Origin: Salinigranum halophilum
GTDB lineage: Archaea; Halobacteriota; Halobacteria; Halobacteriales; Haloferacaceae
NCBI RefSeq assembly: GCF_007004735.1
Contig: NZ_SSNL01000006.1
Span: 186,001-250,000 of the forward strand
Length of the DNA stretch: 64,000 bases
Direction of reading: 5' to 3'
The position numbers and the translations under genes were made by a program. Below the pieces are notes generated by a model. The model was given only the letters and a program-made list of their open reading frames with translations, ran no database searches and was not told the DNA's origin. Below are positions 2,963 through 20,673 of this stretch, piece by piece; the stretch's first letter is position 1; each line of letters opens with the position of its first letter.

Positions 2963-3745
2963 ATGCCTGACTACAGCAACGACTTCGACGGGGACACCGT
3001 CGTCGTCACAGGTGCGAGCTCCGGAATCGGGCGGGAGATTGCGACTCGATTCGGCGAGGCGGGGGCGACTGTGTTGAACGCGGACATCGACTCCCAGCCG
3101 AAGGTGGGGGAGACGCCGACCCACGAGGTCATCCAGAATCAGGGTGGGACGGCCGAGTTCGTGGAGACGGACGTCTCGAACGCCGACGAGATCCGTGCGG
3201 CTGTCGACCGTGCGCGAGAGTACGGCGGGGTCGACGTGATGGTGAACAACGCCGGACTGTTCATCGGTGGGAGCCTCCTCGAGGTCAGCGAAGACGAGTT
3301 CGAGACGATCCACCAGGTCAACGCGAAGGGGGTCTTCTTCGGCTGTCAAGCAGCGGCACAGGACATGATCGACCGTGGGGTCGCCGGGTCCATCGTCAAC
3401 ACGGCGTCGATTAGCTCGTTCGTCGCCCAGCGCGACCAGATCCAGTACGACTCCACGAAAGCCGCCGTCAAGATGATCACACGAGGCGCAGCCCTCGAAC
3501 TGGCGGACCACGACATCAGAGTGAACGCCGTCGGCCCCGGTCAGATCGCCACGGAGTTCATCGACGGGTGGTCTGAGGAGGCCCCGGAAGCAGCCGCGAA
3601 GGACGACCTGATCAAGCCGGTTCCCGCCGGACGCGCGGGCACGCCGGAGGACGTCGCCGGTGCGGTCCTCTATCTCGCCAGTGACGACGCGGACTACGTG
3701 ACCGGTGAGGTGCTGATGGTCGATGGTGGGTGGCGAGTGATCTGA
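2963..3745 (+). CDS. SDR-family NAD(P)-dependent oxidoreductase
   Basis: A 260-aa classical short-chain dehydrogenase/reductase. The cofactor motif TGASSGIG lies near residue 15, the structural NNAG motif near residue 95, and the catalytic Tyr-x3-Lys reads YDSTK near residue 165 with the preceding Ser in the SISSF segment. Substrate is probably a sugar, sugar acid or polyol because the next genes encode an aldolase and a DeoR regulator on the same strand. The ATG is supported by a TATA-like box at 2931. The closest named families are glucose-1-dehydrogenase and 3-oxoacyl-ACP reductase, which cannot be separated by eye. Confidence 0.88.
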   Translation: MPDYSNDFDGDTVVVTGASSGIGREIATRFGEAGATVLNADIDSQPKVGETPTHEVIQNQGGTAEFVETDVSNADEIRAAVDRAREYGGVDVMVNNAGLFIGGSLLEVSEDEFETIHQVNAKGVFFGCQAAAQDMIDRGVAGSIVNTASISSFVAQRDQIQYDSTKAAVKMITRGAALELADHDIRVNAVGPGQIATEFIDGWSEEAPEAAAKDDLIKPVPAGRAGTPEDVAGAVLYLASDDADYVTGEVLMVDGGWRVI

Positions 3746-3805: not shown

Positions 3806-4636
3806 ATGACAGAACCTCAGCTCTTAGACACCCCATCGGGGAACGCAGTAGTGGTAGCGCTCGACCACGGCCTCAGCCTCGGATCGCCAGAGGGATTCGA
3901 GAACCCCGAGGAGACACTCGATAACGTACTGCGCGGTGAGCCCGACGCGGTCCTCGTCGGGCCTCACTTCGCTCGTCACTATCAAGACCGGCTTCAGGAG
4001 GCCGACGTCGACGTCGTCCTCACGGCGGACGTGGTGACGTGGTCGACCAGCCCCGGTCGAGACAACGACCAAGACCTCTGGACGCCGGCGTTCGACGCCG
4101 AGTTCCTCGAGGAACTCGACCCAGTCGGGGTCAAGGTCGTACTGGTGTTCGGCCGTGACGACAACGAGACGTTCATCCGAAACGTCGAGTACATCGGTGA
4201 GCTCGCCGAAGACCTGCGTGGGACGGGAATCCCACTGGTGGTCGAGCCCGTCATGTGGGGCCGACGAGTCCCGGCCCAACTCGAGACGGACGCCGACTTC
4301 GTGGCCGATGCGATGCGCATGGGCTGGGAGTTCGGAGCGGACATCCTCAAGGCACCGTACACCGGCAGCGTCGAGTCGTTCGAGCCACTCGTCGAGAACT
4401 CGCCGGTCCCCGTGATGATCCTCGGGGGCCCCGCGACGGGCACGACCCGAGGGATGCTCGAATCCGTCGAGGGAGCGATGGACGCGGGTGCGCGCGGGCT
4501 GATGATCGGCCGGACCATCTGGAAGTCCGACGACCCTGCCCGGACGGTGTCCGCGCTCATGAAGATCGTCCACGAGGGCGCCGCTGTCGAAGAGGTGTGG
4601 GACGAACCGGAGCAGGCGGCCGTCGTAGACGGGTAG
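3806..4636 (+). CDS. Class I aldolase, DeoC/DhnA (LacD/LsrF-like) family
   Basis: This 276-aa TIM-barrel protein resembles archaeal class I fructose-bisphosphate aldolases and LsrF. It opens with the family strand VVVALDHGLSLG, has the Schiff-base lysine candidate in GADILKAPYTGS (about residue 187), and a C-terminal phosphate-binding segment MILGGPATGT...GARGLMIGRTIW. It probably cleaves a phosphorylated keto-sugar or keto-acid generated by the neighbouring kinase and dehydrogenases. TATA-like AATTAAAT at 3768-3775 is 31-38 nt upstream. It might instead be a 2-amino-3,7-dideoxyheptulosonate synthase relative, but the catabolic context argues against that. Confidence 0.82.
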   Translation: MTEPQLLDTPSGNAVVVALDHGLSLGSPEGFENPEETLDNVLRGEPDAVLVGPHFARHYQDRLQEADVDVVLTADVVTWSTSPGRDNDQDLWTPAFDAEFLEELDPVGVKVVLVFGRDDNETFIRNVEYIGELAEDLRGTGIPLVVEPVMWGRRVPAQLETDADFVADAMRMGWEFGADILKAPYTGSVESFEPLVENSPVPVMILGGPATGTTRGMLESVEGAMDAGARGLMIGRTIWKSDDPARTVSALMKIVHEGAAVEEVWDEPEQAAVVDG

Positions 4637-4720
4637 GAACACTGATTACCAGTCGGCGAAACACCCTGCCATGCCAGTCGCATGGAGTCAGCGAACGAGC
4701 GGGCCCGGGGGTGTAGTCTC

Positions 4721-5485
4721 GTGAGCACTCCCGAACAGCGGCGCCGGTCGATCACGGAGTTGGTCACGAAACACGGTGGCCTCTCGGTCGAGGAGCTCGC
4801 TTCCCGGCTCGACGTCTCGCCCTCGACCATCAGACGCGACCTCGGTGACCTCGCCGACCGGAACCTCATCGAACGGACCCACGGCGGTGCTGTGCCGCTG
4901 ACGAACGTGGGCGTCGAACGGGCCTTCGACCGACGGCTCGTCCAGGACCTGGACGGGAAACAGGCCATCGCCGAACGAGCCGTCGAGGAGATTCACGAGG
5001 GCCAGGTCGTCTTCTTCGATGCCGGGACGACGACGATGCAGGTCGCGAAGGAGGTCCCCGACGACAGCTCGACCATCATCGTCACGAACTCGCCGCTGTT
5101 ACTCCCAGAACTGTCGAGAGCGGACGGCACCGTCAAACTGACCGGTGGAGAGTACCGCAACGAGACCAAAGCACTGGTCGGCCCGACGACCGAAGATTAC
5201 ATCCGAAACTCGTCGTTCGACGTCGCGTTCATCGGCGTCAACGGCATCGAACCCGACGGCTCGCTGTCGGCACCGAACGAATCCGAGGCGAAGATCAAGC
5301 AACTCGCCGTCGAACACGCGACGCGGATCGTCGTCGTCACGACGACCAAGAAGTTCGACGAGCAGAGCTTCCGCCGATTCGGATCGATTGCCGACATCGA
5401 CCTCCTCATCACCGATGGCCGTGTCCCCGACGAGTACCGCGATCTGTTCGACGAGACGGTGCTCGTCGAGAACGTGTCCGGCTGA
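4721..5485 (+). CDS. DeoR/GlpR-family transcriptional regulator
   Basis: The 254-aa product has an N-terminal DeoR winged helix (LSVEELASRLDVSPSTIRRDL, then ERTHGGAVP) and a C-terminal sugar-phosphate sensor domain of the DeoRC type (DAGTTTMQVA, GVNGI). Such regulators usually repress sugar catabolic genes and release DNA on binding a phosphorylated intermediate; the haloarchaeal GlpR that controls fructose/glucose genes belongs here. I prefer the GTG at 4721 because the protein then begins MSTPEQRRRSI, the usual N-terminus; an in-frame ATG at 4682 adds 13 atypical residues. It is placed within the sugar-acid cluster it presumably controls. Confidence 0.87.
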   Translation: MSTPEQRRRSITELVTKHGGLSVEELASRLDVSPSTIRRDLGDLADRNLIERTHGGAVPLTNVGVERAFDRRLVQDLDGKQAIAERAVEEIHEGQVVFFDAGTTTMQVAKEVPDDSSTIIVTNSPLLLPELSRADGTVKLTGGEYRNETKALVGPTTEDYIRNSSFDVAFIGVNGIEPDGSLSAPNESEAKIKQLAVEHATRIVVVTTTKKFDEQSFRRFGSIADIDLLITDGRVPDEYRDLFDETVLVENVSG

Positions 5486-5523: not shown

Positions 5524-6222
5524 ATGCTCGACTCGAAGGAAGTCATAGAGCTGTCAAACCCGATTACCAAGGGCATCCCCGTGTGGCCGAGTTTTCCACA
5601 AATCGAACTCGACCAGACGTCGCTCGCCGCCCGCGACGGGTTCACGATGGAACGCCTCGAGATGCGGAGCCACACGGCGACGCACATCGACGCCCCGGCC
5701 CACTTCATCCCCGAAGGCAAGACACTGGACGACTTCTCTATCGAGTCGTTCATGGGTGAGGGTGTCGTCATCGACCTGACGCCGAAAGAGCCCGAAGAGC
5801 CCATCACCCGTGCCGACATCGAGGCCTACGAGTCGGACATCCAGCCTGGCGACGTCGTCATGCTCCACACGGGCTGGGACGAGTACTACGGCCAGACGCC
5901 GGAGTACCTCTTCGAGTTCCCCTATCTGACCGGTGAGGCCGCGGAGTACGTCGTCTCACTCGACCCGAAGGCGGTGGGGACGGAGGGGGCGAGTGTCGGC
6001 GGCTGGTACGACGAGGTGCCCGCCCACGGCCCGTCGACTGACGTCCACCCGGCCGACTCGCATCTCCCACTGCTCGAGAACGACGTCTTCCCCATCGAGG
6101 AGTTGCGGAACCTCGACCAGGTACTCGACGGTGCGGACAGTCGACGCGCGGACTTCTTTTTCCCCCCACTCAACGTCCAGGGGACGGGCGGGTGCTCGGT
6201 CCGCGCCTTCGCGCTGGTGTAG
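5524..6222 (+). CDS. Cyclase-family metal-dependent hydrolase
   Basis: This 232-aa protein belongs to the cyclase/kynurenine-formamidase-like family. The metal-binding signature HTATHIDAPAHF (family HxGTHxDxPxH) lies near residues 49-60, and GDVVMLHTGW near residue 115 is another conserved segment. Family members hydrolyse amides, lactones or cyclic compounds with Zn2+ or Mn2+. Given the surrounding sugar-acid genes, opening of a sugar lactone or a related hydrolysis is a reasonable inference. The first His of the family's HxGTH pattern is followed by T-A-T rather than x-G-T. Confidence 0.8.
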   Translation: MLDSKEVIELSNPITKGIPVWPSFPQIELDQTSLAARDGFTMERLEMRSHTATHIDAPAHFIPEGKTLDDFSIESFMGEGVVIDLTPKEPEEPITRADIEAYESDIQPGDVVMLHTGWDEYYGQTPEYLFEFPYLTGEAAEYVVSLDPKAVGTEGASVGGWYDEVPAHGPSTDVHPADSHLPLLENDVFPIEELRNLDQVLDGADSRRADFFFPPLNVQGTGGCSVRAFALV

Positions 6223-6344: not shown

Positions 6345-7340
6345 CTACTGGACGAGTTCGACGGCCGTCGTCACTGCATCGACCATGCTCTGTTCGGAGG
6401 CGACCCCCTCGCCGGCGATGTCGAACGCTGTGCCGTGGTCGACGCTCGTGCGAACGATGGGGAGCCCGATGGTGACGTTCACGCCGCTCACCGCGTCGTC
6501 GGTGCCGGTGAAGCCGAGCATCTTGATAGGGATGTGACCCTGGTCGTGATACATGGAGACGACGCAGTCGAACTCGCCCGCCGCGGCCCGGACGTAGACC
6601 GTGTCCGGCGAGTGCGGACCCGTCACGTTTACACCGGTCTCGGCGACCCGGGCGACGGCTGGTTCGATGACCGCGGATTCCTCGTCACCGAGCAGTCCGC
6701 CATCGCTCGCGTGCGGATTCAACCCGGCGACGGCAATGGACGGGTCGTCGATGCCCAGGTCGCGTAACGCGTCGTCCGTGACGCTGATCGTCGACGCGAC
6801 GTCGTCGACCTCGAGGTCGCAGGCCTCCCGCAGCGGGATGTGGGTACTGACGTGTGTCACCGTCAGGTCGTCCTCGATGAGCATCATCGAGTAGTCCTCG
6901 GTGTCGGTGTAGTCCGCGAGCATCCCCGTGTGGCCCGCGTACTCGCTTCCGGCCATCCGGGTCGCCTGTTTGTTGATGGGTGCGGTCGTTATCGCATCGA
7001 TTGCACCGGCCTGTGCGAGTTCGATGGCTCGCTGGACGTATTCGAGGCTCGCCGCGCCGTTCGCCTGGGAGAGCTCACCATACTGGTGGTCGGAGACGTT
7101 GCCGAGGTCGACCACTGGCAGCACCTCGGGGTCGGCGCTCGCCTCGGTCGGTGAGTCGACACGGCGAACAGTCAGCTCTGGGGCGAACCGGTCTGCTGCG
7201 TCTGCCAGCACGGACGCGTCACCGATGACGACCACCGCTGCGGTCTCGACCAGCGTCGGATACGCCTTGACGATGACTTCGCCCCCGATTCCCGCGGGGT
7301 CTCCCATGGTAATGCCGATAGTCGGCAATCTAGCGCTCAT
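6345..7340 (-). CDS. PdxA-family dehydrogenase (D-threonate 4-phosphate dehydrogenase-like)
   Basis: A 331-aa PdxA-type NAD-dependent oxidoreductase. It starts with GITMGDPAGIGGEV, carries GHTGMLADYT in the middle and the metal/substrate motif MYHDQGHIPIKML near residue 235. Classical PdxA oxidises 4-phosphohydroxythreonine in vitamin B6 synthesis, but the PdxA2 group, encoded beside DUF1537 kinases, oxidises and decarboxylates 4-phospho-D-threonate or -erythronate to dihydroxyacetone phosphate. The gene overlaps the upstream kinase gene by 11 nt, so the catabolic role is favoured. Confidence 0.87.
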   Translation of the reverse strand: MSARLPTIGITMGDPAGIGGEVIVKAYPTLVETAAVVVIGDASVLADAADRFAPELTVRRVDSPTEASADPEVLPVVDLGNVSDHQYGELSQANGAASLEYVQRAIELAQAGAIDAITTAPINKQATRMAGSEYAGHTGMLADYTDTEDYSMMLIEDDLTVTHVSTHIPLREACDLEVDDVASTISVTDDALRDLGIDDPSIAVAGLNPHASDGGLLGDEESAVIEPAVARVAETGVNVTGPHSPDTVYVRAAAGEFDCVVSMYHDQGHIPIKMLGFTGTDDAVSGVNVTIGLPIVRTSVDHGTAFDIAGEGVASEQSMVDAVTTAVELVQ

Positions 7341-8601
7341 CGGGCAGACCGAGACGAGCGAGGGACTTAATTATTGCCTGGTCGTCGCCGAACCCGCCCG
7401 CTTTCGTGACGGCCGCCACCCCGTCCGCGACGCCCCCGTCGACAGTCGAGAGCGGTATCCCCGGTGCGACCGCTTCACCGGCCATGCGGAGCGCCGTCGC
7501 GTCGAGGCGGTCGAGGACCGCCCGAGCGGTCGCCCCACCGGTGAGAAAGAGGTTCGACGGCCGGTCCTCCCGAACGACCTCGGCGGCACCGGTCGCGAGC
7601 GCGTCCGTGACCCGCCGCCGAACCGTCGGTCCGTCGACGCCCGCCCGCTCGCCGGCAGCCATCGCCCGGTCGACGTCGCTGCGTGCGTCGGCACTGTGGA
7701 GGAGCACGCCCCCGTGGTTCTCGACGACGGCGCTCCCACGAGCGGCGAGGTCGGCCCCTGCGGTCGACGGGTCGGTGACCGCCTCCTCGAGGTCGAGGTG
7801 CTGGTGGAGCGCTTCCGATACCGCTCCGAGCTGTTCGAGCGTCTCGGGTGCGACACTGCCCGAGACGCCCACCACCGTCCGCGACTCGTCGACGTCGAGC
7901 CCTGCGCCAGCGGGTGTCCCCGGCACGGTGACGTGGTGTGCGAGGCCACCGCTGCCGACGTACAGACAGCGCGCCGAGTGGTCGTGGGCTGCCGCGGCGA
8001 CTGTCGCGAGATGACCGTCCGTCACGGCGTCGCAGGTGACGATGACCGGCTCGTCTGTCGCGCACAGCGACTCGAACGCGTCACGGACAGCAGTCACGCC
8101 GCGCGCGACGGTCCCGACACCGATTCGTTCGACGGGATAGTCACTCGACGCGAAGCACTCGGGGAGCGAGTCGTGTGTCGGCGGTCGTTCCTCGTCTGCT
8201 CCCGGCGGCGACTCCGTCACCAACTGCCCGTCGACGAGGTGGTACCCACACGCCGTCAGTCGCCCGTTGGCGGGAAACGCCGGCGCGACGACGACGAGGT
8301 CTGGGTCGACCGCTCGGGTCGCCGCGTCGACCTCCCTGCGGACGTTGCCACGGAGGGTCGAATCGACCTTCTTGAACACGACGGCGGGGTTGGCCGTCTC
8401 GAGCACCGACCGGACGCGGTCAGCGGCGACAGCGGGTGGCGCGTAGCGCGACTCGGTGTTGTACACGGCGACGTCACCCTGCGGCGTCGTGTCGGTCTGT
8501 GGGGAGAGGACGACTCGGGTGTCGTAGCCGCGTGTCGCGAACTCGTGACCGGTGTCACAGCTCCCGGTCAGGTCGTCAGCGACGACGATACACTGGGTCA
8601 C
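7330..8601 (-). CDS. Four-carbon acid sugar kinase (DUF1537/OtnK-DtnK family)
   Basis: The 423-aa product shows the N-terminal signature VVADDLTGSCDTGHEFA of four-carbon acid sugar kinases, a central GVSGSV segment and a C-terminal nucleotide-binding region with FLTGGATARAVL. Characterised members phosphorylate D-threonate, L-threonate or D-erythronate at O4. Coupling to the PdxA-like gene (11-nt overlap) fits a two-step route to dihydroxyacetone phosphate. The start is GTG at 8601. Which stereoisomer is used cannot be read from the sequence. Confidence 0.87.
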   Translation of the reverse strand: MTQCIVVADDLTGSCDTGHEFATRGYDTRVVLSPQTDTTPQGDVAVYNTESRYAPPAVAADRVRSVLETANPAVVFKKVDSTLRGNVRREVDAATRAVDPDLVVVAPAFPANGRLTACGYHLVDGQLVTESPPGADEERPPTHDSLPECFASSDYPVERIGVGTVARGVTAVRDAFESLCATDEPVIVTCDAVTDGHLATVAAAAHDHSARCLYVGSGGLAHHVTVPGTPAGAGLDVDESRTVVGVSGSVAPETLEQLGAVSEALHQHLDLEEAVTDPSTAGADLAARGSAVVENHGGVLLHSADARSDVDRAMAAGERAGVDGPTVRRRVTDALATGAAEVVREDRPSNLFLTGGATARAVLDRLDATALRMAGEAVAPGIPLSTVDGGVADGVAAVTKAGGFGDDQAIIKSLARLGLPDER

Positions 8602-8680
8602 AGGCGACCCTCCCGGTCCGTTTCACATCGCGCACGCTGGACGATATCGTGGCCGTTCATGCTTGCCCTTGTGAGACACG

Positions 8681-8735
8681 GTGTAAAGAAACGTTCGCCC
8701 GGTCTCCGCCTCGTCTTCGAGGGGCAAAACATAAG
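8681..8735. promoter_or_regulatory. Divergent promoter region between kinase and LarA-like genes
   Basis: On the minus strand a CTTTACA box at 8681-8687 could drive the kinase-pdxA pair with a leader of roughly 50-60 nt. On the plus strand AAAACATAAG at 8726-8735 lies 29-38 nt upstream of the ATG at 8764. A shared control region would link the two transcription units. Confidence 0.4.
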
Positions 8736-8763
8736 CACCTCATCTGCATTGAGTCGCGTATCC

Positions 8764-10077
8764 ATGGAGTTCGAGTTTCCCGGTCGTGACCGGCTAGAGT
8801 CGACCAACGACGTCGAACTGTCCGACCTCCCCCGTGCGTACCGTGTCAGTCGCGTCCGCGACCATCCCACTGTCTCGGACGTCACGGCAGCCACGACCGG
8901 TGCGGTAGACGACATCGCGGCACTCGACGAACTCGAGTCGGGGAGTACGGTCGGCATCACGGCCGGGAGTCGAGGCATCGAGGACCTGCCGGCGGTCCTC
9001 GAAGCTATCGTCTCGGAACTCCAGTCACGCGGGCTCGAGCCGTTCGTCTTCCCCGCGATGGGGAGTCACGGGGGAGCGACTCCGGAGGGACAGCGCGAGA
9101 CGCTCGCGACGCTCGGAATCACGCCGGAGCGACTCGGCTGTGAGATTCGGTCGTCACTCGCCGTCGACCAGGTGGGCAGCGACTCGACCGGCCGACCGGT
9201 GTACGCTGCCGAAGATGCACTGGAGGCCGACGCCGTCCTGCTCGTCAACCGGGTCAAACTCCACACGGACTTCGAGGGAGACGTCGAGAGCGGGCTCTGC
9301 AAGATGGCCGTCGTCGGCCTCGGCAAACAACGCGGTGCCGACAACATGCACAACGCCGCACTCGACCGGGGGTTCGCAGAGGTCATCCCGGAGTGGGCTG
9401 GAATCCTCATCGAGGAGACGCCCATCGTCGGCGGTGTCGGTCTCATCGAGAACGCCGAGGAGCGGGCGGCCGCCATCGAGGGGGTTCCCGCCGCGGACAT
9501 CCTCGACGTGGAACCGGACCTGTTGGCGCGCTCGAAGGAACTGTTCCCCGAACTGCCGGTCGACGACCTCGACCTGCTCGTCGTCGACGAGATGGGCAAA
9601 GAGGTCAGCGGGACCGGCCTCGATACCAACGTCATCGGCCGCGTCAACTTCCTCGGACAGGTCGAACTCGACACGCCAGCGCTGAGCCGGGTCTACGTAC
9701 GGTCACTGACGCCGGCGTCGCACGGAAACGCGCTCGGCATGGGCCTCGCGGACCTCGTCCACCGTGACGTCGCGGCAGCCGTCGACTTCGACGACACGTA
9801 CGTCAACATCGTGACCAGCGGCGAACCGAGCCGAGCGAAACTCCCCTTTGTCGTCCCGAGTGATGCGACGGCGTTCGTGCTTTCGGCGTCGATGACTGGC
9901 GTCGCCAGTGCGAGTGAGCTCCGCATCGCCCGCATCGAGAACACCCTCGCGCCCGAAGAGCTGTGGGTGTCGAAACCGGTCGCCGAGGAACTCGCCGACC
10001 GAGACGACGTCCACGTCCACGAGGACCAGCCCTGGGCGTTCGACGAACACGGCGAACTCGCGATGCCGCTGGAGTGA
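8764..10077 (+). CDS. LarA-family nickel-pincer racemase/epimerase homologue
   Basis: The 437-aa protein is a homologue of lactate racemase LarA. Residues equivalent to those of LarA are present at matching spacing: R70 (AGSR), H102 (GSHGGATPEG), H167 (VKLHTDF), the pincer-anchoring Lys K180 (SGLCKM) and H196 (DNMHN), with 16 residues between the Lys and the last His as in LarA. LarA homologues use the Ni-pincer nucleotide to racemise or epimerise alpha-hydroxy acids, including short-chain aldonates. The start is the ATG at 8764; the frame is open much further upstream, but only because it is antisense to the kinase. No larB, larC or larE is in the window. A C2 epimerase feeding the adjacent kinase is inferred. 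Confidence 0.82.
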   Translation: MEFEFPGRDRLESTNDVELSDLPRAYRVSRVRDHPTVSDVTAATTGAVDDIAALDELESGSTVGITAGSRGIEDLPAVLEAIVSELQSRGLEPFVFPAMGSHGGATPEGQRETLATLGITPERLGCEIRSSLAVDQVGSDSTGRPVYAAEDALEADAVLLVNRVKLHTDFEGDVESGLCKMAVVGLGKQRGADNMHNAALDRGFAEVIPEWAGILIEETPIVGGVGLIENAEERAAAIEGVPAADILDVEPDLLARSKELFPELPVDDLDLLVVDEMGKEVSGTGLDTNVIGRVNFLGQVELDTPALSRVYVRSLTPASHGNALGMGLADLVHRDVAAAVDFDDTYVNIVTSGEPSRAKLPFVVPSDATAFVLSASMTGVASASELRIARIENTLAPEELWVSKPVAEELADRDDVHVHEDQPWAFDEHGELAMPLE

Positions 10078-10156
10078 GACGACGCCCGCCCTCGACGACC
10101 GCGGCGTGAGCCGAGCCGACCACGCGGTGGACGCCACGCGATTCTACCTTATCGAT

Positions 10157-10166
10157 ACTTATTTAC
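10157..10166 (+). promoter_or_regulatory. TATA-like box upstream of the RbsA-type ATPase gene
   Basis: ACTTATTTAC at 10157-10166 lies in a short AT-rich stretch after the LarA-like gene, about 50 nt ahead of the ATG at 10214, implying a leader of roughly 20-25 nt. Confidence 0.4.
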
Positions 10167-10213
10167 ACCGATAGCAAAATTGTGTGACACCGACACACAG
10201 CGCACACAGTATC

Positions 10214-11044
10214 ATGACCACCGGAAGTTCACAACCACGAATCGAGGTAGAACACGTCGAGAAGCGCTTCGGCACTGTGGAGGCCCTCTCGGACGTCACA
10301 CTCACGCTCGGAGACAACGAGGTCCTTGGGCTCGTCGGCGACAACGGTGCCGGCAAGTCGACCTTCATCAAGACACTCGTCGGCATCCACCAGCCCGACG
10401 GCGGCGAGATAAGGTTCAACGGAGAGCCAGTCACCATCGACGGCCCGAAACACGCCCGGAAGCTCGGCATCGGGACCGTCTATCAGGACCTCGCACTCGT
10501 CGACGAACTATCCGTCGCCGAGAACCTCTTCCTCGGCCGGATGCCGGTGAAGAAAGTGGGCGGCCTCCTCTCGGTCGTCGACCAGAAACAGATGAAAGAG
10601 GAGGCCGAGCGTATCCTGAGCGAGCACCTCGAAATCCACGTCGACCCTGATACGCCGGTCGAGTATCTCTCCGGCGGCGAGCGACAGGCGGTCGCCATCG
10701 GGCGCGCCCTCGTCACCGACCCCGACATCGTCCTCCTCGACGAACCGACGTCCGCGCTCTCGAAGGCTGCCGTCGAACACGTCGAAGAGCTCGTCGCGCA
10801 GTTACGCGACAGCGGTCACTCGGTCATCCTGATCGACCACAACCTCGAGGAGGTGTTGTCGATGACCGACCGCATCGCCGTGCTCTTCCAGGGGCGTATC
10901 GTCGACGTCGTCGACGCCGAGGACGTCACCCGCGACGACGTGGTCAGCATGATGGTCTCGGGACAGTCCACCCGCGAGGAGGGAGACGACGAACCGCTCG
11001 GCCGCCAGGCGGACACCACCTCGTCGAGTTCGTCCACAGCGTGA
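10214..11044 (+). CDS. Sugar ABC transporter ATP-binding protein (RbsA/FrcA-type)
   Basis: This 276-aa ATPase has Walker A GDNGAGKST (near residue 45), the signature LSGGERQAVAIGRAL, Walker B IVLLDEPTSAL and an H-loop region LIDHNLEE. It resembles the carbohydrate-uptake CUT2 ATPases, but it holds one ABC domain rather than the two of RbsA/MglA, as in FrcA-type systems, so a homodimer is expected. The chosen ATG at 10214 removes ten residues of a longer frame. It precedes the matching binding protein and permease on the same strand. Confidence 0.9.
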   Translation: MTTGSSQPRIEVEHVEKRFGTVEALSDVTLTLGDNEVLGLVGDNGAGKSTFIKTLVGIHQPDGGEIRFNGEPVTIDGPKHARKLGIGTVYQDLALVDELSVAENLFLGRMPVKKVGGLLSVVDQKQMKEEAERILSEHLEIHVDPDTPVEYLSGGERQAVAIGRALVTDPDIVLLDEPTSALSKAAVEHVEELVAQLRDSGHSVILIDHNLEEVLSMTDRIAVLFQGRIVDVVDAEDVTRDDVVSMMVSGQSTREEGDDEPLGRQADTTSSSSSTA

Positions 11045-11284
11045 GGGCCATCGGCGGGGTCGACGGGACGACTCGCGATGTGACGTCGGGCGAGGCGTTC
11101 TGACCGGCGCGACACTCACCTCCATCCCCTTCCTGGCAGCCTGCCCCCTCGACGTCTTCTCGTACGGCGTCTTCGCAGCCGCCAGTCGGCATCTCACCCA
11201 TCGAGCGGGGCGTCCGTGACGTCAGTCGGGGAAGTATTAAGTGGGACTAGCTAACACGTTTGTGTGGAACGGTAATTAACGACC

Positions 11285-12523
11285 ATGACAAGTAGACGTA
11301 ACATCCTCAAGGGGATCGGAGCAGCGGGCATCGCCGGCCTCGCCGGCTGTGCAGGTGGACAGGGCGGTAACCAGTCGGGGAGCGGTGACAGTGGTGGTGA
11401 TGGTGGTAGCGGCAGCGACGACGGGTCGAGCCAGGGAACCACGGTCGGTGACACTGAAAGCTCGGGCAGCGACACACAGCGGTTCGCCGTCTCGATGAAG
11501 TCGATGGGTCAGGCCGGTCTGTACGTGCAGGGGCAGGCCGCGAAGTGGTACACCCAGGACCGTGACGACGTCGAGATCACCATCCTGGACGCCCAGTTCG
11601 ACGCCTCGAAACAGACGCAGGACGCCATCAACGCGATCAACCAGGGGCTCGACGGCATCTTGCTGAACCCCTTCGACGCCAAGGCGTCGCGCAGAATCGT
11701 CGAGGCGGCGACGGAGGAGGACATCCCGGTGATGAACTTCGACACGGCGACGCTGTCGGAAGACGTCGTCATGGGTGCGCTCTTCGGTCAGTACGCCGGG
11801 GGGCAGGTCGCAGGCGAGCGGTTCACCCAGATGATCGAGGAGAAGGGCATCGAGAACCCCACGGTCATCACGAGTGTCTTCAACTTCGAGTCCACGACGA
11901 GTCAGGCGCGCCTGTACGGCTTCACCGAGAACATCCCCGACAGCGTCGAGGTCGTCAACCGCATCGAGAGTGACGGGACGCCCGAGGACTCCGCTCCTCA
12001 GACGCAGAGTGCTCTCCAGGCCAACCCCGACGTCGACGCCATCTACTCCAACAACGTCGGCAGTGGGATGGGTGCGCTGACGGCGCTCGACCAGATGGAC
12101 ATGTACTACACGAAGGACAACGAGGACCACGTCATGGCGTTCGGTATCGACGGTGGTCCCGAACTCAACCAGCGGATCGGGAGCGGGTACTACGACTTCG
12201 CGGTCGACCAGCCCCTCCACATGTATGCACCGCTGACGCTCGAACTGATGTGGGGCTACCTCGAGAACGGTGAGAGCGCGCTCCCGCAGGTCGGAGACAC
12301 GGTCACGCCCGGTGAGGACCTCTCGATCGAGGACAAGACGGTCGAGGGCATCAACCCGTGGTCCGAACAGTTCTGGGGCCCCGCCGAGATGACCGAGTAC
12401 GAGGCCGAAGACACCGCCTGGTGGCCCTGGATGAAGTGCCAGCACGCGATGATCACCCAGGAGAACGCCGACGCCCCCTACCTCTACGGTAACGTCTACC
12501 GTGAGATCGAGGGGTCGAACTGA
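11285..12523 (+). CDS. Sugar ABC transporter substrate-binding lipoprotein (RbsB-like)
   Basis: A 412-aa secreted binding protein. The N-terminus MTSRRNILKGIGAAGIAGLAGC is a Tat signal ending in a lipobox with the lipidated Cys at residue 22. A Gly/Ser-rich linker (residues 23-65) leads into a periplasmic-binding-protein type I fold of the ribose/galactose class (Peripla_BP_4): an EITILDAQFDASKQTQDAI-like segment, GLDGILLNPFDA, and DAIYSNN. It would capture the imported solute, probably a short sugar, sugar acid or polyol. It lies 240 nt after the ATPase gene and 21 nt before the permease gene. Confidence 0.9.
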   Translation: MTSRRNILKGIGAAGIAGLAGCAGGQGGNQSGSGDSGGDGGSGSDDGSSQGTTVGDTESSGSDTQRFAVSMKSMGQAGLYVQGQAAKWYTQDRDDVEITILDAQFDASKQTQDAINAINQGLDGILLNPFDAKASRRIVEAATEEDIPVMNFDTATLSEDVVMGALFGQYAGGQVAGERFTQMIEEKGIENPTVITSVFNFESTTSQARLYGFTENIPDSVEVVNRIESDGTPEDSAPQTQSALQANPDVDAIYSNNVGSGMGALTALDQMDMYYTKDNEDHVMAFGIDGGPELNQRIGSGYYDFAVDQPLHMYAPLTLELMWGYLENGESALPQVGDTVTPGEDLSIEDKTVEGINPWSEQFWGPAEMTEYEAEDTAWWPWMKCQHAMITQENADAPYLYGNVYREIEGSN

Positions 12524-12544
12524 CCTCCCTCACCTCACGGGACG

Positions 12545-13582
12545 ATGAGCACACTATCCAACGTCAGTTCGACGGTCTCTGAACTGCAGGGCGACCGGAC
12601 GCGGATGCTGTTGTTCGCGCTGGACAACCTCATCTGGCCCATCCTGTTAGTCGCGTTTATCGTCTTCTCGTTACTCCTCCCCGAGATATTCACCCAGTAC
12701 CGGAACATCGAGTTCCTCCTGTACACGAGCGCCGGGCTCGGAGCCATCACGCTCGCGGAGGCCATCTGCCTCATCAGTGGGAACTTCGACCTGTCGGTCG
12801 GGTCCATCGCGGGGTTCTCGTCGATGTTCACCGCGCTGTTCCTCACGAGCTGGTTCAGCGGGGCGCCGGGCATCGTCGGCATCCTGGTTATCCTCGCGGT
12901 CGGTGGTGGAATTGGCTTCCTGAACGGGTTCTTCATCGCCAAGTTCGACGTGAACCCGTTCCTCCAGACGCTGTCTGCGCTCATCGTCTTCGAGGGAGGC
13001 ATCTTGGTCCTGTCGACGCGGTCCGTTTACGAACTCCCGGAGAGCTACCTGTGGCTCGGCGGTGGAGAGGTGGCGCTCGGGGGGCTGCTCCCACAGTCGG
13101 TTCCCATTGCCGTCTTCTTCATGCTCGGCCTCTTCGTCACGGTGTGGTTCGTCCTGATGAAGACCCGGTTCGGCCGAGCGGTGTACGCGGTCGGTGGCGA
13201 CGAGGAGTCAGCCGCCGAAGCCGGCATCGATACGGACCGTGTGGTCATCGCCGTCTTCGTCCTCTCGGGTATGCTGGCCGCGACCGGCGGCCTCCTCCTG
13301 ACGGGGTTCAACGGCGGGGCGACGCCGACGCTCGGAACCTCGCAGCTGTTCCCCGCGTTCACCGCTGCCGTCATCGGCGGCGTGAGCCTGTTCGGCGGCC
13401 GGGGGAACGTCTTCAACGCGCTCGGCGGGGTCCTGTTGCTGAGTACCATCGCCGCCGGACTCGTCATGCTGAACATCGACCCGCAGGTCGTCCAGACCAT
13501 CAACGGCCTCGTGCTGTTCGCGGCCATCCTGCTGTACACCTTCGTCCAGCGGTTCCGGGGGCGGCTGCTCTCGGACCTCTGA
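12545..13582 (+). CDS. Sugar ABC transporter permease (RbsC-like)
   Basis: This 345-aa membrane protein has about nine or ten hydrophobic segments and the CUT2 permease signature ICLISGNFDLSVGSIAGF near residue 80, followed by GFLNGFFIAKF and a C-terminal half with VYAVGGDEESAAEAGI and GGVSLFGGRGNV. It completes the ATPase/binding protein/permease set of the operon and probably forms a homodimer. Translation starts 21 nt after the binding-protein stop. Confidence 0.92.
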   Translation: MSTLSNVSSTVSELQGDRTRMLLFALDNLIWPILLVAFIVFSLLLPEIFTQYRNIEFLLYTSAGLGAITLAEAICLISGNFDLSVGSIAGFSSMFTALFLTSWFSGAPGIVGILVILAVGGGIGFLNGFFIAKFDVNPFLQTLSALIVFEGGILVLSTRSVYELPESYLWLGGGEVALGGLLPQSVPIAVFFMLGLFVTVWFVLMKTRFGRAVYAVGGDEESAAEAGIDTDRVVIAVFVLSGMLAATGGLLLTGFNGGATPTLGTSQLFPAFTAAVIGGVSLFGGRGNVFNALGGVLLLSTIAAGLVMLNIDPQVVQTINGLVLFAAILLYTFVQRFRGRLLSDL

Positions 13583-13850: not shown

Positions 13851-14882
13851 TTATTCGCTGCCGCCGGGGACGACGACTTTCTTCAGTCCCTCGTTGTTCT
13901 CCATCTGTTCGAACGCGGCCGGAATCTCCTCGAGGCCGACCTCTTCGGTGATGAGCGAGTCGGCGTCGATACGACCGTGTTTGAGGAGCGAAACGGCGCG
14001 CTGGAACGAGTCCCGCGTGAGAGCGAACGTGCCTCGGAGGTCCAGGTCGTTGTAGAAGAAGTCGAAGGGGCTGATCTCCATCGCCACGTCCTGTCTCGGA
14101 ACGCCCACGATGAGGGTCGTCCCACCCTTGGCGGTCACCTCGTGGGCCTGTTCGATGGTCGGGACCAGTCCGACGACCTCGATGCCGGCGTCGACTTCGC
14201 CGATCTCTTCCCGGATGGTTTCGACGGGGTCGCCCGCTTCGGGGTCGACGACGAGGTCGGCACCCAGCTCGGCGGCGAGTTCGCGGCGCTTGGGGTCGAG
14301 CTCCGACACCGCAATCGGGCCCGCACCGCGATTCCGGAGCGTCTGCAGCAACAGGAGGCCAATCGGTCCCGCGCCGATTATCGCGACGCTGTCGGCCTGC
14401 CCGACGCCGCTCCGGTCGGCGGCGTGGACACAGCAGCCGAGTGGTTCCGCGAGCGCTGCGTGACGGAACGGCATATCGCCGACCGGCTCGACGTTGGCTT
14501 CGGGCACGAGCACGTAGTCGGCGAACGAGCCGTCGAGAACGCGGTCGGCGGCACCGCCGATCGAGGTCGCGCTCTCGCAGAGGTTGGTCTCCCCTCGCTT
14601 GCAGTACGAGCAGGCACCACACGACACCGTGGGATTCATCGCGACGCGGTCGCCGGGCGCCACTCTCGTGACGTCGTCGCCGATTTCGGCGACGGTTCCT
14701 GCGCTTTCGTGCCCGGGCACGACCGGGAAGTCGACGGCGAAGGACCCGTGATACATGTGAAGGTCGGTCGTGCAGATGCCGCACGCACCGACGCGTAACA
14801 CGACTTCGTTCGGCCCTGGTTCAGGCTGGTCCTGCTCTCGTACCTCTATCTCGCCGACGTCTGTCAGCGACGCTACGCGCAT
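13851..14882 (-). CDS. Zinc-dependent alcohol/polyol dehydrogenase (MDR family)
   Basis: A 343-aa medium-chain dehydrogenase. Catalytic zinc ligands are in GICTTDLHMYHG and PGHESAGTV, the structural zinc lobe reads CGACSYCKRGETNLC (four Cys), and the Rossmann motif is IIGAGPIGLLLLQ near residue 170. It resembles threonine-, galactitol-phosphate- and sorbitol-type dehydrogenases. It is convergent with the CUT2 importer operon, so oxidation of an imported polyol or sugar acid is likely. Exact substrate is unknown. Confidence 0.88.
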   Translation of the reverse strand: MRVASLTDVGEIEVREQDQPEPGPNEVVLRVGACGICTTDLHMYHGSFAVDFPVVPGHESAGTVAEIGDDVTRVAPGDRVAMNPTVSCGACSYCKRGETNLCESATSIGGAADRVLDGSFADYVLVPEANVEPVGDMPFRHAALAEPLGCCVHAADRSGVGQADSVAIIGAGPIGLLLLQTLRNRGAGPIAVSELDPKRRELAAELGADLVVDPEAGDPVETIREEIGEVDAGIEVVGLVPTIEQAHEVTAKGGTTLIVGVPRQDVAMEISPFDFFYNDLDLRGTFALTRDSFQRAVSLLKHGRIDADSLITEEVGLEEIPAAFEQMENNEGLKKVVVPGGSE

Positions 14883-15127
14883 CGGTGTCTCCGTGGACGG
14901 TCGCGGGCTGGTTCCTCTGTTCGGTCGTCGAGTGTGTGTGTCTGCATCATTGCTTTCGTTTCGTCGTAAGGCTGGGTGGGGGGTTCAACGTCGGCAGGGA
15001 CGAGCGTGACTCCGTCCTGAACCGCGGTCGAGTCAGTGACACGGTCTACCCCAAGTCAGATACATTCAAACATTGTATATAAAAATTGGTACCATCCGAC
15101 CAGCTGACCGGGCCGTACCGACAGTGC
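14883..15127. other. Short intergenic region between two minus-strand dehydrogenase genes
   Basis: This 245-nt stretch separates the alcohol dehydrogenase start from the stop of the upstream SDR gene. The AT-rich part at 15056-15090 precedes the SDR stop on the plus strand and could include its terminator. No gene is supported. Confidence 0.4.
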
Positions 15128-15904
15128 CTATCGACGGTCCAGTCGCCAGCTGTCGATGGGGACCTGGCCGCCGTCGACACGGAGTTCGTGACCGTTGACG
15201 TAGTCGCTCGCCGGAGCGGCCAGGAACGTGACCGCGTCGGCGACCTCCTCGGGCTCGGCGAACCGTCCCAGTGGGTTGTTGTCGAGGATCTGCTCGGTGA
15301 CCGCATCGCTGAATCCCTCCGTCAGCCTCGTGTTGGCCCACCCGGGGGCGACCGCGTTGACGCGGACCCCTTCCCGCCCGAGTTCGAGGGCGAGGCTCTT
15401 CGTCAATCCCAGAAGGCTGTACTTCGCGACGTCGTAGGCGGGTGACATCCCGACACCGTTTTTCGTGTGGATCGAAGTGAAATTGATTATCTTCCCGTAG
15501 CCCTGTTCGACCATCCCGTCGACCACTTCGCGCGTGCAGTTCAGCGCGCCACGGAGGTGTACGTCGAGGTTCAGCTCGAAGGTTCCGTCGTACTCGTCGT
15601 CCAGGAACGGTCCCGCGTCGCCCACACCCGCGTTGTTGACGAGGATGTCGACCGGACCGAGTTCGTCAGTCGCGGTCTCGACCATCGCAGCCACTTCCGT
15701 TTCGTCGCTCACGTCTGCGGGAACGCCGACCGCGTCGACACCGAGGTCGCGAATCTCGGCTGCGGTCTCTTCGGCCACCGTCTCGTCGATGTCGTTGACG
15801 ACGACGTCCGCCCCGTTTCGCGCCAGTTCTTCGGCAGACGCTCGCCCCATTCCCCGCCCCGATCCACTGACAATCGCAGTCTTGCCTGTGAGGTCGCAAT
15901 CCAT
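15128..15904 (-). CDS. SDR-family oxidoreductase
   Basis: A 258-aa short-chain dehydrogenase. The glycine motif is SGSGRGMG (near residue 15, with Ser in place of the usual Thr), NNAGVGDAG lies near residue 88 and the active-site Tyr-x3-Lys is YDVAK near residue 155. It resembles 3-oxoacyl-ACP reductase and galactitol- or gluconate-type dehydrogenases. The ATG at 15904 is preferred over a GTG four codons upstream because TATACTTAA at 15932-15940 on the same strand is 28-36 nt away. It is divergent from the following ABC operon and likely shares its control. Confidence 0.88.
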   Translation of the reverse strand: MDCDLTGKTAIVSGSGRGMGRASAEELARNGADVVVNDIDETVAEETAAEIRDLGVDAVGVPADVSDETEVAAMVETATDELGPVDILVNNAGVGDAGPFLDDEYDGTFELNLDVHLRGALNCTREVVDGMVEQGYGKIINFTSIHTKNGVGMSPAYDVAKYSLLGLTKSLALELGREGVRVNAVAPGWANTRLTEGFSDAVTEQILDNNPLGRFAEPEEVADAVTFLAAPASDYVNGHELRVDGGQVPIDSWRLDRR

Positions 15905-15931
15905 TGCATCGACCACCTTCCGCTGGGACGG

Positions 15932-15998
15932 TTAAGTATATTGGGAGCATGGAAAGAAATAAATATCATTATCCTTCAACGTGTTACCGGAGACACGT
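15932..15998. promoter_or_regulatory. Divergent promoters with dyad next to the start codon
   Basis: The minus-strand TATACTTAA box (15932-15940) serves the SDR gene and AAATAAATATC at 15957-15967 serves the binding-protein gene. An inverted repeat ACGTGT-N8-ACACGT at 15979-15998 ends exactly one base before the ATG at 15999 and may be an operator. Confidence 0.45.
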
Positions 15999-17471
15999 AT
16001 GACAGACGGATACCGTAGACGACAGTACCTGAAAGGGGCTGGAGCGACGAGTTTAGGTGTTCTGGGTGCTCTCGCTGGCTGTACCCGTGGCGGGTCGAGT
16101 TCGGACGGCGGGAGTTCGAGTAGCGGGTCGAGCGATGGGTCGAGCGGTGGATCCGGCGACAGTTCCGGTGGCGGCTCGGACGGCGGGTCGAGTTCCTCCG
16201 AGGAACTCCCCATCCCACTCAGCGAGTACGACAGCGCGGACATCGACTGGCAACAGTTCGAGGGCGACCAGATCAACATCGGTGCAGTCCAGCATCCGTG
16301 GGTCCAGGCCATCAAGCCTGCCATCCCGGTCTTCGAGGAACTCACTGGCATCGACGTCCAGTGGAACATCCTGCCGGAGAACCAGTTCCGGACCAAGCGC
16401 CAGACCGACGCGAGCACCGGTGCTGGGCAGTTCGACGTGTTCTTCATGGACCAGGTCGTCAACCAGTTCCGCAACGAGGGCTGGCTCCAGCCGCTCGACC
16501 CGTACTTCAACGACGAGAGCCTCTACGACGAGAGCTTCTACAAGCCCAACGACCTCTTCGAGTCGTCGCGGTGGCAGGCCCACGGTGGTGGCTACAGCGA
16601 CAACTGGACCGGCCTCCCCATCACAGTCGAGGTCCAGACCCAGTTCTACCGCCAGGACCTCTACGACAAACACGATCTGGAGGTCGCCGAGACGTGGCAA
16701 CAGCACCGCGAGAACGCCAAGGTCATCGACGAGAACGAAGATGTCGCCGGGACGTCCGGTCGTGGCCAGAAGGGCTACGGGATGAACATCTACATCCTGA
16801 ACACGTTCCTCCGCCAGAAGGGGACCAGCCTCTGGAGCGACTTCCCCAACGACTCCGGTCTCGACACCCAGGGCGTCATCGAGGCAGCAGAGTACTACAC
16901 GAGCCTCCTGCAGGACTACGGGCCGGACGGCGCGTCGACTCAGACCTGGTCCGACGTCCAGGCGGCGATGGCGGAAGGGCAGACTGGCCACATCGTCGCT
17001 GACGCCAACATGTTCTGGGGCGGCCTGACCAACGACGAGTCCAACGTCGCCGACACCGTCCAAATCGCGAAGGTTCCCAAGCCGGAAGGCGGCGAGCTGA
17101 ATCCGAACGCGTTCAACTGGCAGATCTCGACGTCCACGAACGCGCAGAACTCCGAGCAGGGCTTCCTGTTCATGCTGTGGGCGACGTCCCCACCGACCGA
17201 CCTCTGGATAAACACGGAGAGCAGCGGTGTGTTCTCCGTGCGCCAGTCCACCTGGGAGAACGACGACTACATCTCGAAAGTCGGAGAGGACTACGCACAG
17301 GTCTCGCTCGAATCGCTCAAGGCCTCGGCGCCTGACCCGTTCGACCGGAAGTACCCCGAATGGGGCCAGCGCTACTCCGAGGAACTGCAGCGGGCCATCA
17401 CCGGCCAGAAACCCGCCGAGAAGGCGATGAAGGACGCCGCGGCGACTGCCGAAGACATCTACAGCGGCTGA
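15999..17471 (+). CDS. ABC transporter extracellular solute-binding lipoprotein (family 1)
   Basis: A 490-aa secreted binding protein. After MTDGYRRRQYLKGAG comes a hydrophobic stretch and the lipobox LAGC (about residue 30), then a long Ser/Gly linker typical of haloarchaeal Tat lipoproteins. The mature part resembles carbohydrate-binding family 1 proteins (PF EELTGIDVQW, QFDVFFMDQVV, WVQAIKPAIP). It heads an operon with two permeases and an ATPase and would bind an oligosaccharide, sugar or polyol. The ATG at 15999 is chosen over a GTG six codons earlier that precedes the dyad. Confidence 0.9.
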   Translation: MTDGYRRRQYLKGAGATSLGVLGALAGCTRGGSSSDGGSSSSGSSDGSSGGSGDSSGGGSDGGSSSSEELPIPLSEYDSADIDWQQFEGDQINIGAVQHPWVQAIKPAIPVFEELTGIDVQWNILPENQFRTKRQTDASTGAGQFDVFFMDQVVNQFRNEGWLQPLDPYFNDESLYDESFYKPNDLFESSRWQAHGGGYSDNWTGLPITVEVQTQFYRQDLYDKHDLEVAETWQQHRENAKVIDENEDVAGTSGRGQKGYGMNIYILNTFLRQKGTSLWSDFPNDSGLDTQGVIEAAEYYTSLLQDYGPDGASTQTWSDVQAAMAEGQTGHIVADANMFWGGLTNDESNVADTVQIAKVPKPEGGELNPNAFNWQISTSTNAQNSEQGFLFMLWATSPPTDLWINTESSGVFSVRQSTWENDDYISKVGEDYAQVSLESLKASAPDPFDRKYPEWGQRYSEELQRAITGQKPAEKAMKDAAATAEDIYSG

Positions 17472-17514
17472 GGCAACGCACGATACTCGCACCCGGATTA
17501 ATTTTCCACACATC

Positions 17515-18447
17515 ATGAGCACACCAACACAGACAGAAACGACAAACAAACACGGCGTCGCCAAGCTCCGGGACCTGTGGAACGACTACCTCCCGTACTG
17601 GTTCGTTGCACCGATGGTGCTGGTGATGGTGATGATTACCTTCTTCCCCGGTGCGTACGACCTGTATCTCAGCCTGATCGAAGAGCCTACGGTGAACATC
17701 TTCGCAGCCGAATTCGTCGGCCTGGAGAACTTCGAGACGGCGTTCACCCGTGGGGGGGCGTTCCACTCGTTCGTCATCACGGTCACCGTCGTCGTCAGTG
17801 CCCTGCTCCTCGAGAGCCTCCTCGGCTTCTTCCTGGCAGCTCTCGTCGCCGGGGTCGAATCCGGACGGGCGAAGGCGTTCTACCGGGTCCTGTTCATCCT
17901 CCCGATGGCAGTCGCGCCCGTCTCGTTGGCGACTATCGGTCGGCTGATGCTGAACACCGAGGTCGGAATCATCCCGTACGTCATCAACACGGCGACGCCG
18001 TTCGCCGCGCCGGCGTTCCTCTCGGACCTTCCACTGTTAACCGTTATTTTGCTCGATACGTGGAACTGGACGCCGTTCATGTTCATCATCTTCTACGCCG
18101 GCCTCTCGTCGGTGCCTGACACGCTGGTCGAGGCATCACGGGTCGACGGCGCCCCGCTGTGGCGGCGGTACATCCACGTCATCATCCCGTACATGAAACC
18201 CGTGGTGTTCGTCGCCACGCTCATCCGGATGATCGACCTGTTCCGGACGTTCGGTGTGGTGTACGGTCTGACCCAGGGCGGTCCGGGGACGGCGACCCAG
18301 CTGGTGAGTATCAACATCTACGAGCAGATGTTCATCAACAACCAGATTGGTGTGGCGGCTGCGATCGCAGTCGTCTACCTCGTCTTCGTCATCGCCATCG
18401 CGAACATCGTCATCGCGAAGGTCGGCTTCGAGGGGGTGTGGGACTGA
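17515..18447 (+). CDS. Carbohydrate ABC transporter permease (MalF/UgpA-like)
   Basis: The 310-aa protein has six predicted membrane spans after a polar N-terminus rich in Thr and Asn. The cytoplasmic EAA loop that contacts the ATPase reads EASRVDGAPLWRRYIHVIIP near residue 205. It pairs with the next permease, whose ATG overlaps its TGA by one base (TGATG), indicating coupled translation. Confidence 0.91.
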   Translation: MSTPTQTETTNKHGVAKLRDLWNDYLPYWFVAPMVLVMVMITFFPGAYDLYLSLIEEPTVNIFAAEFVGLENFETAFTRGGAFHSFVITVTVVVSALLLESLLGFFLAALVAGVESGRAKAFYRVLFILPMAVAPVSLATIGRLMLNTEVGIIPYVINTATPFAAPAFLSDLPLLTVILLDTWNWTPFMFIIFYAGLSSVPDTLVEASRVDGAPLWRRYIHVIIPYMKPVVFVATLIRMIDLFRTFGVVYGLTQGGPGTATQLVSINIYEQMFINNQIGVAAAIAVVYLVFVIAIANIVIAKVGFEGVWD

Positions 18448-19322
18448 TGGCTACACAGGACGTCGAGCCGGGATCGGCTTATCGGCTCGACAAGGACACG
18501 CGGGAGACGCTCGTGAAGGTCGTCCGACATGCCCTGCTCCTGACGTGGTCGTTCGTCGTGTTCTTCCCGCTGTACTGGTTGGCCTCGATGTCGCTGAAAC
18601 CCCCGGGCGACGCGAACTCGCTCCCGCCGGACTGGGTCTTCCTGCCGACGGTGTACAACTACCTACAACTGGTTCAGGACGGCGAGTTCGTCGGAGCGTT
18701 CGCCAACAGCCTCCTCATGGTGGGGGCGTCGGTGGTTCTCGTCTTGCTGATCGGCGTGCCGGCGGCGTACGTCCTCTCGCGGTACGATATCCCGATGGAA
18801 CGGGACGTCCTCGTGTGGATCCTCTCCTCGCGGATGCTCCCGCCCATCGCCGTCGTGCTCCCGTTCTTCATCATTTTCAGGGAACTCAACCTCTTCGACA
18901 CCCGTATCGGGATGGTGCTGATGTACATCAGCATCAACCTCTCACTGGTCGTGTGGGTGATGAAGGCGTTCTTCGACGGCATTCCCGAGACGCTCGAGGA
19001 GGCCGCACGCGTCGACGGCGCGACCCGGTTCCAGGGGTTCATGAAGGTCGTCCTGCCAGCGGCCAAACCCGGCATCTTCTCCGTCGCGATTATCAGCTTC
19101 ATCTTCGCGTGGATCGAGCTCCTGTTCGGCCTCGTGTTGACGAGCTTCAATGCAGTGCCGGTGACACTGTTCGTCTACTCGTTCATCGGCTCTCGCTCCA
19201 TCGAGTGGTCGATGCTGGCGGCCGCCTCGACGGCGATGATCGTTCCGGTAGCGATCTTCCTCATCGCGGTGAACAAGTACCTCGCGGCCGGGCTGAGCTT
19301 CGGCGTGGTGATCAAAGAATGA
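18447..19322 (+). CDS. Carbohydrate ABC transporter permease (MalG/UgpE-like)
   Basis: This 291-aa permease has six hydrophobic segments and the EAA-loop motif EAARVDGATRFQGFMKVVLP near residue 190. A short charged N-terminus precedes the first span (ALLLTWSFVVFFPLYWL). Start and stop overlap their neighbours: the ATG shares one base with the upstream TGA, and its own stop overlaps the ATG of a 34-codon ORF (ATGA). Confidence 0.91.
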   Translation: MATQDVEPGSAYRLDKDTRETLVKVVRHALLLTWSFVVFFPLYWLASMSLKPPGDANSLPPDWVFLPTVYNYLQLVQDGEFVGAFANSLLMVGASVVLVLLIGVPAAYVLSRYDIPMERDVLVWILSSRMLPPIAVVLPFFIIFRELNLFDTRIGMVLMYISINLSLVVWVMKAFFDGIPETLEEAARVDGATRFQGFMKVVLPAAKPGIFSVAIISFIFAWIELLFGLVLTSFNAVPVTLFVYSFIGSRSIEWSMLAAASTAMIVPVAIFLIAVNKYLAAGLSFGVVIKE

Positions 19323-20595: not shown

Positions 20596-20673
20596 CATCC
20601 TCCCCGCCCTGAAGGACGGGGTTTTAGCCTTGCATTTTCGATAAGAAGCCAGCGAAGGGCGGTTCGCGTTCAC
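20594..20673 (-). mobile_element. Scar of an IS200/IS605-type (tnpB-bearing) element, right end
   Basis: The stretch contains a strong hairpin, CCCCGCCC-TGAA-GGACGGGG at 20602-20621 (8-bp stem, one C-A mismatch), followed by GTTTTAGCC. Read on the minus strand it encodes AKTPSFRAGRMS, which from memory resembles the C-terminus of TnpB proteins, where coding sequence and the right-end guide RNA overlap. Only about 80 bp remain; no tnpA or tnpB body is present. The hairpin may now act as a transcription terminator for the ABC operon. Confidence 0.5.

Follow-up and report, generated by a model that had tools for sequence, protein, structure and literature searches.

The locus described here raises the question of why a homologue of LarA, an enzyme type that depends on a nickel-pincer nucleotide (NPN) cofactor, is encoded next to enzymes for four-carbon acid sugars in a haloarchaeon. 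The window analyzed is a 64,000-nucleotide stretch of DNA from Salinigranum halophilum and forms part of contig C5 in a 4.2-Mb haloarchaeal genome. Within it, the larA gene (8764-10077, forward strand; ATG at 8764, stop codon ending at 10077; 437 amino acids) is divergent from a gene for a DUF1537 four-carbon acid sugar kinase (7330-8601, reverse strand). The kinase gene overlaps by 11 bp a gene for a PdxA2-like dehydrogenase (6345-7340, reverse strand), a predicted tetronate-4-phosphate oxidative decarboxylase. The starts of the larA and kinase genes are separated by a 162 bp intergenic region (8602-8763), taken as the divergent promoter region, in which no inverted repeat of at least 9 bp was found. 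These gene positions, and the divergent pair with its overlapping neighbor, were proposed in an initial annotation made from the DNA sequence, and all of them hold in open reading frame (ORF), Pfam, and NCBIfam checks. The trio of LarA, kinase, and dehydrogenase suggests one pathway taking in two closely related acids. The LarA homologue is probably an NPN-dependent enzyme that epimerizes a four-carbon aldonate at C2, most likely interconverting D-erythronate and D-threonate, and a single kinase/dehydrogenase branch would then yield dihydroxyacetone phosphate (DHAP) from both.

By profile match and predicted structure, the window protein is a member of group 22 of the LarA superfamily with a two-domain LarA fold. 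It scored 483.8 bits against NCBIfam model NF052515 ("nickel pincer cofactor-dependent isomerase, group 22"; cut-off 400). The Pfam Lar_N model gave 19.2 bits, under its cut-off of 23.3 (a group-22 member from Bacillota scores 35.8); NF052515 is the more specific of the two, and Lar_N was treated as supporting rather than defining. The nickel-pincer residues named in the initial annotation (R70, H102, H167, K180, and H196) were read exactly as given, and none of them varies among 54 diverse group-22 homologues, which come from archaea and many bacterial phyla. They appear to be the counterparts of R75, H108, H174, K184, and H200 of LarA1, with similar spacing and an identical lysine-to-histidine distance of 16. 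The haloarchaeal lineage to which the protein belongs, clade C, has invariant residues of its own (H320, D344, E354, and R357).

Searches against the sequences of solved structures gave at most weak matches. A clade-C LarA profile (A1) had none, a wider LarA profile (A2) returned only chance matches to repeat proteins, and a Bacillota group-22 member matched Mar2 and LarA with E values of 0.004-0.02. Therefore fold comparison was used. The AlphaFold2 model of the window LarA (predicted local distance difference test score 94.4, predicted template modeling score 0.90) aligned over 310-332 residues with twelve solved entries of the LarA family (Z 18.7-21.1), while the next, unrelated row stood at 6.8.

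The genome also encodes the synthesis of the cofactor. The initial annotation had asked for larB, larC, and larE and would have taken the absence of NPN synthesis genes as evidence against its proposal; all three were found above cut-off, with LarB at 231.6 bits (cut-off 175), LarE at 294.2 bits (cut-off 150), and the two LarC domains at 201.3 and 119.2 bits (cut-offs 90 and 50). A second group-22 LarA paralogue, from clade A, is present in the same genome (C2:705465-706634, locus L003). Known LarA enzymes use proton-coupled hydride transfer to invert 2-hydroxy acids at C2, and aldonate 2-epimerases are among them (PMC7583248; PMC11770544). It is highly improbable that the window enzyme uses NPN for a different hydride shift in the same pathway, such as an aldose/ketose-type isomerization. 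Such a role would be compatible with the lack of a reported group-22 activity in these two papers and with the other NPN reactions proposed for some groups (PMC7583248), but both catalytic histidines are invariant in group 22, unlike in the single-histidine LarA subfamily (PMC12611868).

The kinase contains the Pfam domains SBD_N and NBD_C (DUF1537) at 179 and 85 bits, and its predicted fold matched 5dmh at Z 43.8. Its neighbor matched the PdxA family at 342 bits, and scored 269-286 bits to the PdxA2 structures 4jqp, 6e85, and 2hi1 vs 166-176 bits to PdxA1 structures; the match to 6e85, a solved D-threonate-4-phosphate dehydrogenase, was 279 bits. PdxA2 enzymes are catabolic (PMC9997740). In most haloarchaeal loci examined, kinase and PdxA genes were found as a pair. 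No PdxJ was found in the genome, whereas PdxS was, and a role of the window PdxA in vitamin B6 synthesis was therefore rejected. That the pair serves B6 synthesis or recycling of 4-hydroxythreonine, with LarA unrelated to it, is barely credible: the PdxA-family annotation would fit, as would the B6 precursor recycling to which DUF1537 kinases are tied in work cited in PMC9997740, but the PdxJ and PdxS results, the closer match to PdxA2, and the constant partnership with LarA all speak against it.

The constancy of this partnership was established across the order. Group-22 LarA, DUF1537, and PdxA were searched for in 293 haloarchaeal genomes, and about 120 loci were retrieved. Haloarchaeal group-22 LarAs formed three supported clades (A, B, and C), with the window protein in clade C. 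In clade C, 27 of 31 members were found no more than 2 kb from a kinase or PdxA gene, compared with 1 of 92 in clades A and B together. This first count was biased, as many clade-C sequences had been retrieved via the kinase, and it was therefore redone as a linkage-independent census of the whole order with the window LarA as query. A clean gap separated clade C, at 52-66% identity to the query, from all other sequences, at 48% or less. Clade-C LarA was found in 39 of the 293 genomes, the window's own included, and these span nine families. Both kinase and PdxA were present in all 39, as against 48 of the 293 genomes overall (hypergeometric 3e-40, a value that is overstated since the genomes are related). 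The association of LarA with kinase and PdxA is far above chance.

Among the 39 clade-C LarAs, 28 are encoded within 3 kb of a kinase or PdxA gene and five at 7-35 kb on the same contig, and the remaining six lie on other contigs of draft genomes. Clade-C LarAs that seem unlinked in records of Halarchaeum, Halomarina, and Salinigranum are likewise accompanied by a DUF1537 kinase, located in the same record or elsewhere in the genome. One metagenome-assembled genome gave no kinase match, and there larA lies directly beside a pdxA cut by the contig end. The predominant gene order is a tandem kinase-pdxA-larA, as in Natronococcus sp. CG52, which was found at 17 loci; at one of these the LarA is of clade B and 1.3 kb away, and most of the others have overlaps of 4-8 bp. 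A divergent larA occurs at four loci including the window, larA-kinase-pdxA at four, and a convergent arrangement at two. Haladaptatus salinisoli has a cupin gene within the module (larA-kinase-cupin-pdxA). The linkage of the trio has survived rearrangement.

The co-occurrence is also one-way. In nine of the 293 genomes kinase and PdxA are present but a clade-C LarA is missing; the opposite case does not occur. Moreover, loci with and without larA are intermingled in the kinase tree. Together these two features are as expected for a pathway that can run on kinase and PdxA alone and that the epimerase extends.

Further evidence came from bacteria, where 80 group-22 loci were surveyed from a collection of 84,980 species. 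Kinase, pdxA, and larA were found in one cluster in seven Bacillota, including Heyndrickxia coagulans 36D1 and Neobacillus niacini, and in one member of Bacteroidota. The LarAs of these bacterial trios form a branch of their own outside clade C, and therefore the association of LarA with kinase and PdxA is either old or of two separate origins. The cluster also contains larE in five of the seven Bacillota, and the presence of a cofactor-synthesis gene there independently and strongly supports a place for the nickel enzyme in the pathway. The cluster of H. coagulans 36D1 (locus L277, 760-9992) comprises, in this order, a gntP permease gene, larE (370.7 bits), a gene for a sigma-54 regulator, kinase, pdxA, larA, and a gene for a membrane protein. 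The latter is weakly NicO-like, its nickel-transporter match reaching 25.4 bits with a cut-off of 27.7. This operon is a non-halophilic counterpart of the haloarchaeal module.

D-Threonate and D-erythronate differ at C2 only. A DUF1537/PdxA pair was reportedly found by Zhang and colleagues in 2016 to convert D-threonate to DHAP and CO2. Because the stereochemistry at C2 is lost in DHAP, one branch can take both C2 epimers when an epimerase is present. In the proposed pathway one histidine of LarA (H102 or H167) would take the proton of the C2 hydroxyl, and a hydride would move to the K180- and H196-bound cofactor and then back onto the opposite face, in a proton-coupled hydride transfer. The DUF1537 kinase would add a phosphate to O4 of one epimer, which the PdxA2-like enzyme would then oxidize at C3 and decarboxylate to DHAP and CO2. 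The net direction is likely from D-erythronate to D-threonate, a preference suggested by analogy, because D-threonate-4-phosphate is the hydroxy analogue of 4-hydroxythreonine-4-phosphate, the ancestral substrate of PdxA.

We infer that epimerization precedes phosphorylation. With the order reversed, the kinase would phosphorylate both tetronates and LarA would epimerize the 4-phosphates (for example 4-phospho-D-erythronate to 4-phospho-D-threonate) for PdxA. The genes and their co-occurrence fit this order equally, and the clade-C invariant residues R357 and H320 might bind a phosphate. However, the LarA substrates given in PMC7583248 and PMC11770544 are free acids, and the reversed order is considered improbable.

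The choice of erythronate and threonate as substrates is made by family precedent: LarA homologues epimerize gluconate/mannonate, and several act on 4-deoxy-threonate/erythronate as a side reaction (PMC7583248; PMC11770544). Several observations weigh against this choice. Group-22 enzymes are absent from the LarA activity tables of both papers, and gene context does not always point to the right LarA substrate and has proved misleading in this superfamily in the past (PMC7583248). The kinase scored 211.7 bits against its nearest model, that of D-threonate kinase (NF047819, cut-off 450), and was therefore not named DtnK; likewise, PdxA reached 304.4 bits against the D-threonate 4-phosphate dehydrogenase model NF002891 (cut-off 583). 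The closest relatives of the window kinase and PdxA are in a cluster without an adjacent larA (L123 5513-10361, genome G292), which has the order SDR-aldolase-DeoR-PdxA-kinase, SDR being a short-chain dehydrogenase/reductase, and is 70-85% identical to the window. About 43 kb from this cluster, genome G292 encodes a further kinase/PdxA pair, and a clade-C larA adjoins it. Some clade-C LarAs have aldonate dehydratases around them and lie 14-45 kb from the kinase, and those of Halarchaeum and Halomarina have enolase-superfamily dehydratases, FAH, and aldehyde dehydrogenase as neighbors.

These neighbors of the Halarchaeum and Halomarina enzymes favor the main rival, in which the LarA substrate is a different 2-hydroxy acid belonging to these degradation islands (glycerate, tartrate, a pentonate, a hexonate, or a tetronate stereoisomer other than the two proposed), with kinase and PdxA as neighbors in the pathway and not as direct partners. 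It would also agree with the location of many haloarchaeal kinase/PdxA loci in acid-sugar islands, and with the other contexts in which some group-22 relatives are found. The complete one-way co-occurrence with kinase and PdxA, the overlapping genes, and the independent bacterial trio argue against it, and another aldonate as the LarA substrate is held to be unlikely, though a good deal less so than the reversed order. The tie between a LarA-type C2 epimerase and the tetronate kinase/PdxA2 branch that the initial annotation had drawn has strong support from operon linkage in Halobacteria and again in Bacillota/Bacteroidota, from one-way co-occurrence, and from the NPN synthesis genes, and the conserved residues and predicted folds are those of a LarA enzyme; the substrate and direction of the epimerase keep the status of predictions.

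The module can be compared to several known systems. It shares with the DtnK/PdxA2 pathway for D-threonate (work of Zhang and colleagues, cited in PMC10580937 and PMC9997740) a kinase of the same family, an oxidative decarboxylase of PdxA2 type, an overlapping pair of genes, and DHAP as predicted product, but it has a nickel-pincer LarA as a constant third member, and its kinase and PdxA fall below the D-threonate-specific cut-offs. The D-gluconate 2-epimerases GntE1 and GntE2 (LarAH19 and LarAH20) are likewise LarA-fold, NPN-dependent C2 epimerases of aldonates in a sugar-acid gene context; however, they act on a six-carbon substrate and belong to LarAH groups other than 22 (PMC7583248). Lactate and hydrophobic-acid racemases of the LarA superfamily share the fold and catalytic residues, and the side reaction on 4-deoxy-threonate/erythronate is theirs, but they prefer lactate or hydrophobic acids and are without linkage to a tetronate kinase (PMC11770544). 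In the D-erythronate and L-threonate pathway of Ralstonia and Brucella (DenD, LtnD, OtnI, OtnK, and OtnC), one DUF1537-family kinase also serves two tetronates, whereas convergence there is by dehydrogenation to oxo-acids, with no nickel epimerase and with other dehydrogenase and decarboxylase families (PMC10580937).

The enzyme families are each known. In the open-access literature searched, there was no description of LarA with DUF1537, of haloarchaea with threonate, or of a D-erythronate/D-threonate 2-epimerase activity by a nickel-pincer enzyme, nor was there any mention of the trio as a regular combination, of its one-way co-occurrence, or of its occurrence in both archaea and bacteria. 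The initial annotation knew of no described archaeal pathway of this form; the module is not specifically archaeal, being found also in Bacillota and Bacteroidota.

Other genes near the trio were considered as parts of the module. The initial annotation had drawn in the importer, a DeoR regulator, and a class I aldolase; all three are present near the window larA, but no other clade-C LarA was found with the window versions of these genes beside it, and they were rejected as module parts. The importer (10184-13582, forward strand) begins 106 bp past the end of larA, and comprises a single-domain RbsA/AlsA-like ATP-binding cassette (ABC) ATPase identified by model match (10184-11044), a sugar-binding lipoprotein with a Pfam Peripla_BP_4 match (11285-12523), and a permease with a Pfam BPD_transp_2 match (12545-13582). 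The DeoR-family regulator (4682-5485, forward strand) bears the NCBIfam name GlpR_Halo (371 bits, cut-off 300). Next to it is the class I aldolase of the DeoC/LacD family (3806-4636, forward strand; Pfam), which is also present in the related cluster L123.

Two further forward-strand genes have homologues in related loci. An SDR dehydrogenase identified by model match (2963-3745) has homologues of 62-85% identity near kinase and PdxA in L109, L117, L120, L123, and L134, and may supply the acid via oxidation of a small aldose. A cyclase-family (PF04199) hydrolase (5524-6222; Pfam) has homologues of 64-65% identity in L134 and L140. On the far side of the importer, ORF translations indicate a further sugar island (13851-22025) with two zinc-type alcohol dehydrogenases, an SDR, and a second sugar ABC importer (binding protein, two permeases, and MalK-like ATPase).

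Group 22 extends well beyond clade C, and was found over its curated cut-off in 119 of the 293 haloarchaeal genomes, with up to six matches per genome. Clade-B genes are often found beside LutB/LutC-like lactate utilization and glycerate kinase genes (L165-L224; L313 10725-12068), these names having been read from sequence together with one DUF4147 annotation. Clade B is a candidate lactate or glycerate racemase. The neighbors of clade A encode a GlcD-like flavin adenine dinucleotide oxidase, FAH, IclR, and a solute-binding protein. Public records mostly name group-22 members "DUF362 domain-containing protein", for example the plasmid records L312, L314, and L315, and owing to this annotation the group is easily overlooked. 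Plasmid records with a match to the window LarA (below 60% identity) include 47 from Pseudosulfitobacter and 13 from Sulfitobacter.

The chances are about even for the fullest form of the proposal. In this form, a dedicated nickel-pincer D-erythronate/D-threonate 2-epimerase would be the regular third enzyme of the DUF1537/PdxA2 module in Halobacteria and, via a separate LarA lineage, in Bacillota/Bacteroidota, forming a cross-domain funnel of C2 epimers to DHAP and providing the first function for group 22. The fixed gene partner gives group 22 a concrete, testable substrate, and because the three haloarchaeal clades differ in gene context, substrates can also be predicted for clades A and B. 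If the proposal is true, one epimerase would double the substrate range of a pathway, and the nickel cofactor would be linked to the catabolism of common sugar-oxidation products.

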